Translations under genes and position numbers: made by a program | Source of the DNA: an uncultured Granulosicoccaceae bacterium | GTDB taxonomy: Bacteria; Pseudomonadota; Gammaproteobacteria; Granulosicoccales; Granulosicoccaceae | Assembly (NCBI GenBank): GCA_937922675.1 | Contig: CALAJN010000005.1 | Coordinates: 248,001-312,000, forward strand | Direction: 5' to 3' | Length of the DNA: 64,000 nucleotides | Notes under the pieces: generated by a model | What the model was told of the DNA's origin: nothing | Seen by the model: only the letters and a program-made list of their open reading frames with translations | The model's database searches: none | In this document: positions 14,694 to 17,979 of the stretch, one piece after another | How positions within the stretch are numbered: the stretch's first letter is position 1 | Layout: each line of letters opens with the position of its first letter

Positions 14694-16619
14694 TTATTCC
14701 TCCGATACGTCACGGCCGCGACGCGCGACCTCGTCATTCAATTGCTCGATGATCTCTCCAAGCGAGATCACACCGAGGTCCCTACCGTCCTGAGTCCGCA
14801 CAGCCAATGTGCCGTCCTCAGCCTCACGGTCCCCTGCGACCAGCAAGTAGCTGGCCCGTTGCAGGGTCCACTCGCGGATCTTGAAGCCGATTTTCTCGTT
14901 TCTCACGTCCGCCTCCACGCGGAACCCGGCATCTTGCAACACTTTTGCAGCTTCGGCAACGTACCCGGCCTGCCGATCGGTGATATTTAGCACCGCAACC
15001 TGCACAGGAGACAGCCAAAGCGGCAATTTGCCCTCATATTGCTCGATGAGGATGCCAATGAAGCGCTCGAAACTACCCAGAATCGCTCGATGCAACATGA
15101 CAGGCACACGACGCTCACCGGTTTCGTCCACGTAGCTGGCATCAAGGCGCCCCGGCATGGAGAAATCCACCTGCATGGTGCCGCATTGCCAGACTCGCCC
15201 AATGCAATCACGCAAGCTGAACTCGATCTTGGGCCCGTAGAAGGCACCCTCACCGGGCAACAACTCCCACGGCAAGCCCTTGGCGTCCAGCGCATCGGCC
15301 AGCGCTTTTTCCGAGCGGTCCCAGTCCTCATCCGACCCCACGCGCTTGGGCGGCCGAGTGGACAGTCGGTAGATCACGTCGCTGAATCCGAAATCGGCAT
15401 AGATCTCGTGCAGAAAATCGATAAAGGCTGCCACTTCGTTCTGGATATCATCGTCGGCGCAAAAGATATGCCCGTCATCCTGGACAAATCCGCGCACCCG
15501 CATGATGCCGTGCAAGGCACCAGACATCTCGTTGCGGTGGCATGAGCCAAACTCGGCAAGGCGCAGCGGCAGGTCCCGATAACTCTTCAGCCCCTGGTTG
15601 AAGACCTGCACATGACACGGGCAGTTCATCGGCTTGACCGCATAGGTGCGATCGTCGGTCGCTACACTGAACATGTCATCACCGAACTTGTCCGCATGGC
15701 CGCTGCGCTCCCACAGCGACATATCCACGATCTGCGGCGTGCGGATCTCCTCGTAGCCCTTGGCGATCTGTGCCCGGCGCATGTGATCCTCGACAGCACG
15801 ATAGATCGCCCAGCCGCGCGGGTGCCAGAAGACCATACCGGGGGCCTCTTCCTGAACATGGAACAGATCCAGCTGACGGCCGATGCGACGGTGATCCCGC
15901 TTCTCAGCCTCCGCAAGATTGTGCAAATGCGTCTTGAGTGCCTTTGGCTCGGCAAAGGCGGTGCCGTAGATGCGTTGCAGCATGGCCTTGTCTGAATCGC
16001 CTCGCCAATAGGCCCCGGCAAGCTTCATCAACTTGAAGGCCTTCAGGTGCCGGGTATGCGGCACATGAGGCCCACGACAAAGGTCGATGAAGTCGCCCTG
16101 CTTGTAGAGGGACAACTCCTCGTTGGTCGGTATGTCCTCGATGATTTCGGCTTTGTAGTGCTCGCCCATGCCCTTGAAAAAGGCCACCGCCTCGTCGCGC
16201 GGCATGACCGAGCGTTGCACCTCGTCGCCGGTCTTTGCCAACTCCTTCATGCGGGTCTCGATACGCTCGAGATCCTCGGGGGTAAATGGCGTCTCGCGTG
16301 CAAAATCGTAAAAGAAGCCGTCTTCAATGACTGGCCCGATGGTGACCTGGGTGTCCGGGTACAGCTGCTTGACCGCCTGCGCCATCAAATGGGCACAGGA
16401 ATGGCGCAACAGCGGCAGAGCTTCTTCGCTCTTGGCGGTGACGACCGAGAGAGTCGCATCATGGCTCATGGGGTAGCTGGCATCTACCAGCGTGCCGTCC
16501 ACAACGCCTGCAAGGGTTGCCTTGGCAAGGCCCGGGCCGATGTCAGCGGCGACGTCCATCACGGTGACGGCGTCCGGGTAGGTCCGGACGCTACCGTCCG
16601 GCAAGGTAATTCGGGGCAT
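14694..16619 (-). CDS. thrS: Threonyl-tRNA synthetase
   Basis: ThrRS charges tRNA-Thr and hydrolyses Ser-tRNA-Thr. The 641 residues (E. coli 642) begin [12 protein letters not shown] with an N-terminal TGS domain. Next come the editing domain with [11 protein letters not shown] and DLCRGPH, and the class II catalytic core with the zinc-binding MNCPCH. The C-terminal anticodon-binding domain follows. The ATG at 16619 is chosen by alignment; the frame extends to 16649 into the leader hairpins. No clear Shine-Dalgarno is visible. Two anticodon-like hairpins lie in the leader. The stop is one codon from the infC start. Confidence 0.98.
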
Positions 16620-16638
16620 CAACAAGCACTCGGCAGTG

Positions 16639-16698
16639 GTGACCACCACGAGAGGTCACATGAATCACAAGGCGACCGTTACGAGAGGCCGCCTTGTG
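16639..16698 (-). promoter_or_regulatory. thrS translational operator: two anticodon-like hairpins
   Basis: On the minus strand the distal hairpin (16698-16666) has the perfect stem CACAAGGCG/CGCCTTGTG, extended by three more pairs, and apical loop TCTCGTAAC. The proximal hairpin (16659-16639) has stem GTGACC/GGTCAC and loop TCTCGTGGT. Both loops share CCTCTCGT across the stem-loop border and place CGT (16683-16681 and 16650-16648) after a T, like U33 and a threonine anticodon CGU. In E. coli, ThrRS represses its own mRNA through two such anticodon-mimic arms; this is inferred to be the same here. Confidence 0.75.
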
Positions 16699-16700
16699 AC

Positions 16701-16706
16701 AGTGTA
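16701..16706 (-). promoter_or_regulatory. Candidate thrS -10 box
   Basis: TACACT on the minus strand is identical to the -10 boxes of tRNA-Asn and tRNA-Val. No strong -35 is seen. A transcript from here would start around 16694, inside the 5' arm of the distal operator hairpin, leaving a leader of about 75 nt. An upstream promoter, or read-through from aqpZ, would instead give the full stem. Confidence 0.4.
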
Positions 16707-16741
16707 GCCGAGCTGCCGTTATTTACCCGGGCTCATTGCAC

Positions 16742-17500
16742 TCAGTACGTTTCGAGATCGTGGTTACTGTCCATCATCAAACGATAGATCAGCGCACCAA
16801 TGATCGCGCCAACGATCGGTGCCGCCCAGAACAGCCACAATTGCTGCATCGGCACGGTGACACCGTCACCGAATACCTGAGCGATTACCGCTTGAGCCGT
16901 CGAGCGTGCCGGGTTAACACTGGTGTTGGTCACCGGAATACTGATCAGGTGAATGAGCACCAGCGCAAGACCGATGGCAAGACCACCCATGGCAGCGGCA
17001 GCTCGTTTGGCGGTAGCGCCCATGATCACGATCAGGAACACTGCCGTCAAAACCACCTCGGTAACCAGCGCCGCCATCATCGTGTAACCACCAGGCGAGC
17101 CCTCGGGGCCAAATCCGTTAGTGGCAAAGGTGCCCGCGCCGGGCGCAATGGCAAACCCGTCTTGTCCGGAGGCGATGGTGTAGATCGTGAACGCACCCAG
17201 CACGCCACCGATGACCTGGGCAATGATGTAGCCCGGAACCTTGGCCGCCGAGAAGCGCCCACCGACGGTAAGTCCTATCGTCACCGCCGGGTTGAAGTGC
17301 CCGCCGGATACATGACCCACCGCATACGCGCCGGTTACCACCGTCAAACCAAATGCAAGACTGACACCCACAAAACCCAAACCAAGGCTGGTGCCATTGC
17401 CACCGGTACCAAAATCTGCTGCCAAAACAGCAGCGCCGCAACCACCCAAAACCAACCAGAAGGTTCCAAAAACCTCTGCCATTAACGCTCTTCCGTACAT
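16742..17500 (-). CDS. aqpZ: Aquaporin Z
   Basis: This is a 252-residue water channel with six membrane helices and two half-helices carrying the NPA boxes in [11 protein letters not shown] and [11 protein letters not shown]. The Arg after the second NPA and the [13 protein letters not shown] segment match the aromatic/arginine filter region of E. coli AqpZ (His, Thr, Arg), so water rather than glycerol is the likely substrate. The ATG at 17500 has GGGAGG about 5 nt upstream and gives the family start; the longer frame to 17725 is spurious. thrS lies 122 bp downstream. Confidence 0.96.
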
Positions 17501-17902
17501 ATATCCCTCCCGGAATGTAAGTTTGAGACAGACACCAAGCAGTGCCAGACAAGTCGCGCTGTTTCGTCTAACGCAACTGTGGCACAGACGATCATGGACT
17601 ATGGTCCCGAAGTGTAAAAACGTGTGCCAAAATGTCCATCGGTTCACAGATCGCTTGCCTTGGCCAGGTAGCTGGTGAACGAGAAAAGGCCACCGCAGTG
17701 TGCGGAACGGGTATCGGAGCTGCACCTCGTGAGGCGGGAGCCTGGGAGTTTTGAGCGTTGTCTGGAGGTGCTGGAGACGGCGTGCGCGCTCCGATGTCAG
17801 TGCGAGGCACGGTTTTGGCCGCCAGCAGGCAGATCGACGGCGCCATTCCCCTTGATGGTTGACGGCTCGGCCGCGGCTCCCTACACTTTGCGGCGCAACG
17901 GC
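17501..17902. other. Intergenic region between aqpZ and tRNA-Val
   Basis: This 402-bp stretch holds the aqpZ 5' region and, at its right end, the tRNA-Val promoter. Several frames cross it on both strands, but none has a ribosome binding site or recognisable protein. I see no repeat or RNA structure that stands out. Confidence 0.5.
17859..17887 (+). promoter_or_regulatory. Sigma-70 promoter of tRNA-Val
   Basis: TTGACG (17859-17864) and TACACT (17882-17887) are separated by 17 bp and lie 15 bp before the tRNA. A GC-rich GGCTCGGCCGCGGCTCC spacer separates them. The layout is the same as at tRNA-Asn. Confidence 0.75.
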
Positions 17903-17979
17903 AGGCGCGTAGCTCAGTTGGTTAGAGCATCACCTTGACATGGTGGGGGTCGTTGGTTCGAATCCAATCGCGCCTACCA
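17903..17979 (+). tRNA. tRNA-Val (GAC)
   Basis: This is a 77-nt cloverleaf with CCA encoded. The acceptor stem is AGGCGCG/CGCGCCT with discriminator A. The D-arm is GCTC-AGTTGGTTA-GAGC, and the T-loop sequence is TTCGAAT. The anticodon loop TTGACAT gives GAC at 17937-17939, which reads valine GUC/GUU codons. It has its own promoter and terminator. Confidence 0.96.

Follow-up and report, generated by a model that had tools for sequence, protein, structure and literature searches.

The window, the stretch of 64,000 nucleotides analysed here, carries on its minus strand thrS, the gene for threonyl-tRNA synthetase (ThrRS), and directly before it, on the sense strand, two consecutive hairpins. The proximal hairpin (arm 2) ends 19 nt from the thrS ATG, and the distal one (arm 1) lies upstream of it (Table 1). 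On the same strand, an aquaporin/glycerol-facilitator-like reading frame (window 16742-17725, identity from its translation) ends 122 nt before the thrS ATG; read-through from this frame into thrS is possible. A tRNA-Val gene is found at 17903-17979 on the other strand.

Table 1. Features of the thrS leader in the window (coordinates of the whole stretch; parts of the arms are listed in minus-strand direction).
Feature	Position	Strand	Description	Basis
Arm 1 (distal)	16664..16700	(-)	14-pair stem, loop TCTCGTAAC	sequence and fold
Arm 1 parts	5' strand 16700-16687, loop 16686-16678, 3' strand 16677-16664	(-)		
Arm 2 (proximal)	16639..16659	(-)	GTGACC-TCTCGTGGT-GGTCAC	E. coli thrS operator domain 2 homologue (by alignment)
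Arm 2 parts	GTGACC 16659-16654, loop 16653-16645, GGTCAC 16644-16639	(-)	6 Watson-Crick pairs	
CACTGC flank	16633..16638	(-)	directly 3' of arm 2; part of conserved GGTCACCACTG block	
Linker between 6-bp stem cores	16660..16671	(-)	12 nt	
TACACT, -10-like hexamer	16701..16706	(-)		read from sequence
thrS, threonyl-tRNA synthetase	14694..16619	(-)	641 aa with N-terminal domain; ATG at 16619	

The stem of arm 1 consists of 14 contiguous pairs, 12 Watson-Crick and 2 G-U, and formation of the full stem would leave 4 nt of the linker unpaired. Both loops comprise 9 nt, start with TCTCGT and present C-G-T after a T; treating the outermost bases as an unpaired 31-39 position shortens them to 7 nt, CTCGTAA in arm 1 and CTCGTGG in arm 2. 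A preliminary description had reported two consecutive minus-strand hairpins 19 nt before the thrS ATG with shared TCTCGT loops and C-G-T after a T. Both hairpins folded at that place, and both loops are as described. Its stem length for arm 2 (6 bp) was also correct, while the perfect stem of 9 bp, 12 with extension, corresponds to the inner 12 of the 14 pairs of arm 1. A 9-nt loop with CGT at its positions 4-6, closed by a stem of at least 5 Watson-Crick pairs, occurred in nine hairpins on the two strands of the 64-kb window; arms 1 and 2 were the only neighbours among them, and the only ones with TCTCGT. The twin-hairpin observation is confirmed as real and beyond chance.

The thrS operator of E. 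coli is a textbook case of tRNA mimicry. Arm 2 of the window aligns with domain 2 in the thrS leader of E. coli K-12, and the match extends into the unpaired block 3' of the stem, which reads GGTCACCACTGC in both; on this alignment the arm is a homologue of domain 2. A covariance model (R1) was built from 45 arms of 23 other loci (L004-L026) of Granulosicoccus, the marine genus to which the window belongs, with the window and its sister species G016 left out. The model gave arm 2 of the window 33 bits, with an E value of 1.2e-6 in 69 kb; the arm of G016 reached 40.9 bits, and domain 2 of E. coli 24 bits. For arm 1 of the window it returned 14.9 bits over stem tip and loop (E 0.078), which is not significant, so the case for this arm rests on its stem of 14 pairs, on the loop that it shares with arm 2 and on the comparison across the genus. 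None of the 4227 models of Rfam 15 matched the window leader (16560-16800) at E up to 1. The well-studied E. coli K-12 thrS leader (L033) also went without a match at this threshold, suggesting that Rfam lacks a model that recognises the thrS operator.

An arm of this kind stands before thrS throughout the Gammaproteobacteria. R1 matched 44 of the 48 genomes of the order, the thrS start not being assembled in the other four (G022, G023, G043, G044). Matches were found in 122 of 369 sampled genomes of the class (E up to 0.01) and in 41 of 397 sampled genomes of the phylum (E up to 0.001), all 41 being the own genome or members of the same class; both scans covered samples under stricter filters that lose weak matches. 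Of 80 class matches that were fetched, 79 precede a ThrRS start, and the 80th (L118), which had been extracted in the wrong orientation, was left out of the arm counts. G35-U36 was invariant in all 79 arms, and the CACTG after the stem was nearly so. Position 33 was T in 74 arms, and position 34 varied (C in 51, G in 17, T in 7, A in 4). The tRNA-Thr genes of the window genome have the loops TTCGTAA, TTGGTAA and CTTGTAA, which represent three isoacceptors (CGT, GGT and TGT). Since the isoacceptors vary at position 34 and ThrRS reads positions 35 and 36, the mimic varies and is fixed at the same places as its model. The window ThrRS matches 1qf6 over its full length, with the N-terminal domain present, and is 57% identical to E. 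coli ThrRS. Its residues N574, R588, E599 and R608 align with N575, R589, E600 and R609 of the E. coli enzyme, which we take to be the anticodon readers.

Compensatory base changes in relatives, for which the preliminary description had proposed a covariance search, were present. Across 82 arms (75 distinct), 4 of the 6 stem pairs showed two-sided changes, in 25 cells, and 0 of 500 shuffles scored as high; the shuffles and slides are the control here, as the 80 class arms had been picked by their score under a model in which the structure is built in, which biases the pairing percentage upward. The real alignment was above every slid control on pairing, cells and covariation score, and a slide of -3 tied with it on the number of pairs (4) and on further pair types (9). 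The earlier reading of these hairpins as anticodon-like arms in the leader of thrS is supported, as are the invariant G35-U36 and the compensatory changes.

What is unusual is the second arm. Under one scoring rule, an upstream arm of the same geometry was present in all 24 Granulosicoccus leaders, against 0.3 expected from shuffles. The same rule found it in none of 18 sister-genus leaders (0.1 expected) and in 3 of 79 class leaders (1.6 expected). The genus count covers 24 of 25 loci, as the contig of L025 ends before arm 1, and the sister count 18 of 19 leaders, L161 having 21 nt upstream. The unusual degree of symmetry between the two arms that had been remarked on is supported as well.

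Whole-genome scans agreed. Two adjacent R1 matches occurred in 22 of 27 genomes of the genus and in none of 21 sister-genus genomes, 19 of which have a match. The remaining genomes of the genus were the window genome and G016, with one match each and a diverged arm 1, G011, where the sequence is cut, and G022 and G023, which are without the thrS start. In the class sample of 369 genomes, two adjacent matches were seen only in G002 and G014. When the genomes of 84,980 species were searched with an exact pattern for twin arms, 16 stretches matched, all from this genus; the pattern recognises 17 of the 24 known twins, missing the window and G016, and is specific rather than exhaustive. RNAalifold, applied to the 24 genus leaders, predicted exactly the two hairpins, unprompted. 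A looser hairpin scan for a generic second G-U arm stayed at chance levels (4 of 18 sister leaders with 2.6 expected, 22 of 79 class leaders with 21.4 expected); it did not rank E. coli domain 4 best, and domain-4-type arms may occur elsewhere. No report of a doubled thrS arm or of a Granulosicoccus thrS leader was found in the open literature. The element is of a known kind, a thrS autoregulatory operator, in a new genus-wide form with a doubled domain-2-type arm, and the doubling of this known self-control switch looks specific to the lineage.

Sequence identity across the 24 genus leaders was 78% and 83% in the arm cores, and 38% in the linker. The core-to-core length of the linker was 12-17 nt in 23 leaders and 8 in one. 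CACTG follows arm 2 in 21 leaders and arm 1 in 20. The loop of arm 1 keeps G-U in 24 of 24 leaders and A37 in 23. At position 34 it has C in 21 leaders and T in 3, and at position 33 T in 12, G in 8, C in 3 and A in one. The claim that both arms present CGU after U33 therefore holds for the window and not for the genus, where C34 and U33 of arm 1 vary. G-U wobble pairs are common in the arm stems. In the genus alignment 99.3% of the arm-1 cells are paired, with two-sided changes; over that alignment as a whole the two-sided changes are few, comprising two stem pairs and four cells that fall within two pairs of sister species, and they probably represent two lineage events. One of five covariation measures for the genus (further pair types) was not above shuffles (386/500).

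The window and G016 depart from these rules. In both, arm 1 has diverged outside the loop: the loop TCTCGTA is kept, the stem is another one, and CACTGA is missing. The arm-1 stem is fully paired in the window (14 pairs), and one core pair is broken in G016. The leader of the relative G014 (L016) has two arms that agree at 29 of 29 nt, and this leader, rather than the window as had been proposed, is the clearer example of the symmetry.

The divergence of arm 1 in these two species, its lost flank and usual stem and the broken pair in G016, would fit the view that arm 2 alone is the operator. Arm 1 would then be a relic, a neutral copy or an aid to RNA stability at the 5' end, and the effect would be that of the single arm with which the sister genera manage (18 leaders). 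The presence of T at position 33 in only half of the arm-1 loops points in the same direction. However, the G-U of these loops is kept throughout and A37 almost so, their stems are paired nearly everywhere, with two-sided changes, and the length of the linker is near-constant. We consider it unlikely that arm 1 is idle, although this account has more in its favour than the other two alternatives discussed below.

The history of the second arm was traced in a tree of ThrRS sequences, 25 from the genus, 18 from sister genera and one from E. coli, L054 (131 aa) being left out. Granulosicoccus came out as a single group (support 90/87, recovered in 91% of 200 bootstrap trees) that branched among the single-arm genera, in a tree of moderate support with E. 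coli as a long branch. The window and G016 formed the starred pair (100/100). Since the sister genera are one-armed and Granulosicoccus is nested among them, the doubling looks like a gain, and not like an operator that this lineage keeps, as had been suggested. The simplest account is one gain of the second arm before the genus radiated. The label of a minimal operator, also proposed earlier, fits the single-arm sister genera better.

Arms from the same genome were no more alike than arms from different genomes (23.4 vs 23.35 of 29, p 0.43; 22 of the 24 leaders, with the window and G016 left out). Concerted evolution or ongoing homogenisation of the arms was rejected on these grounds. We infer that the second arm arose by duplication, and in view of this comparison the inference draws on the shared sequence of the arms and not on recent identity.

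We consider it very probable that the leader is a translational operator in the thrS mRNA, bound by ThrRS, whose proximal arm was doubled in Granulosicoccus. With ThrRS in excess over tRNA-Thr, the enzyme would bind its own leader RNA, where its anticodon-binding domain would recognise G35-U36 in the mimic loops. ThrRS on the leader would then keep ribosomes from loading at the start codon, which lies just downstream. In Granulosicoccus, doubling of the proximal arm would have placed two similar arms about 15 nt apart before thrS, and the two sites of one ThrRS dimer may each take one arm, resulting in tighter or steeper repression. ThrRS binding, repression and simultaneous binding by one dimer are parts of this model that we infer. 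The near-constant length of the linker, combined with its unconserved sequence, suits one dimer holding both arms and is not proof of it. The CACTG after arm 1 is far from the start codon and still kept in 20 of 24 leaders, suggesting that the flank has a role in repressor binding and is not a ribosome site. With somewhat more confidence than doubt, we favour the specific proposal that duplication of the domain 2 arm produced a symmetric operator with one arm for either site of the ThrRS dimer, with the CACTG flank of arm 1 belonging to the repressor-binding unit.

The window leader would work like the operator of E. coli. In that species ThrRS binds both hairpins of the thrS leader and hinders 30S binding (PMC3858243). 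The operator mimics the anticodon arms of tRNA-Thr, and changing the mimic anticodon to that of methionine switches control to MetRS (PMC3858243, PMC9976931). A long U-rich unpaired linker in the E. coli leader helps to load the ribosome (PMC3858243). No linker of such length is present in Granulosicoccus, where it measures 12 nt in the window and 8-17 nt across the genus, so ribosome recruitment must differ in detail from E. coli. The two systems (domains 2 and 4, or hairpins H1/H2, in E. coli) share the gene, the distance to the start, the domain 2 sequence and the loop geometry. They also share the presence of two hairpins, both ThrRS-bound in E. coli (PMC3858243), and the E. coli upstream hairpin likewise shows a U-U-G-U loop (AUUUGUUG, predicted fold).

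The second hairpin of E. coli, domain 4, is long and bulged, does not resemble domain 2 and by our reading is separated from it by about 30 nt. In Granulosicoccus its place is taken by another arm of the domain 2 type, at a distance of 8-17 nt, and the window has no second arm with the long bulged stem and U-U-G-U loop of domain 4. Sister Granulosicoccaceae genera and other Gammaproteobacteria have the same arm before thrS, usually as the only one of its geometry (second arm in 0/18 sister and 3/79 class leaders). The title of a 1996 paper by Romby reportedly names "symmetrical operator-repressor interactions".

Yeast AspRS mRNA and HisRS are cases of autoregulation by anticodon mimicry, in which a synthetase recognises a part of its own mRNA that resembles an anticodon (PMC6542539, PMC9976931). 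These systems work alike and are not related, being eukaryotic, with other synthetases and another RNA architecture. The two E. coli arms differ, so that the requirements of ThrRS in either one are difficult to establish, whereas two near-equal arms beside one-armed sister genera amount to a natural experiment. In Granulosicoccus, constraint from repressor binding, which would act on both arms, can be separated from constraint from the ribosome site, which would act on arm 2 only. The leaders of the genus also let one ask whether symmetric occupancy of the dimer sharpens autoregulation.

As for the transcript, with the TACACT hexamer as -10 element transcription would begin near 16694, which leaves about 75 nt up to the ATG. 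The same or a similar hexamer is present upstream of arm 1 in 22 of the 24 genus leaders. The earlier estimate of a compact leader near 75 nt agrees with this putative start, but a strict sigma-70 promoter scan of the window leader gave no match. In the window and G016 the hexamer directly abuts arm 1, as might be expected if the arms were an inverted repeat at the DNA level, bound by a transcription factor or shaped by a promoter. Against this stand the other leaders in which the hexamer was found, where it lies at least 24 nt upstream in at least one candidate, and the frequent G-U wobble pairs of the stems, which suit RNA rather than DNA symmetry. We therefore regard a DNA-level function as the least credible of the alternatives.

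A terminator-like alternative hairpin at 16648-16631 overlaps arm 2 in the window and raises the question of a transcription attenuator or terminator, with hairpins that stop RNA polymerase before thrS and no translational operator. The overlapping hairpin is present in the window only among the 24 genus leaders (one other leader has a different site elsewhere). Moreover, the conserved parts are the loop letters and the unpaired flank, which a terminator does not need. Attenuation thus appears highly improbable, and translational control by ThrRS remains the preferred reading.

Weak second matches of R1 in the class were inspected in 18 regions for arms at other genes. Seven weak matches of 26 nt (L194-L200), which recur in several genomes, seem from the translated letters to be antisense to a conserved part of the infB coding sequence and were set aside as chance resemblance; most of the others look like chance as well. 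One orphan copy of the arm with partial flanks and no thrS behind it was found in a gammaproteobacterium (L204:597-625; G338, contig 18). This genome carries a thrS copy of the arm on another contig (L211), and the orphan is possibly a decoy or a relic. Finally, in L060 and L061, both of sister genus g6, and in L056 of sister genus g2, the thrS leader is immediately preceded by a tRNA-like stretch with an end of the gattcgaatccaatcgcgcctacca type.
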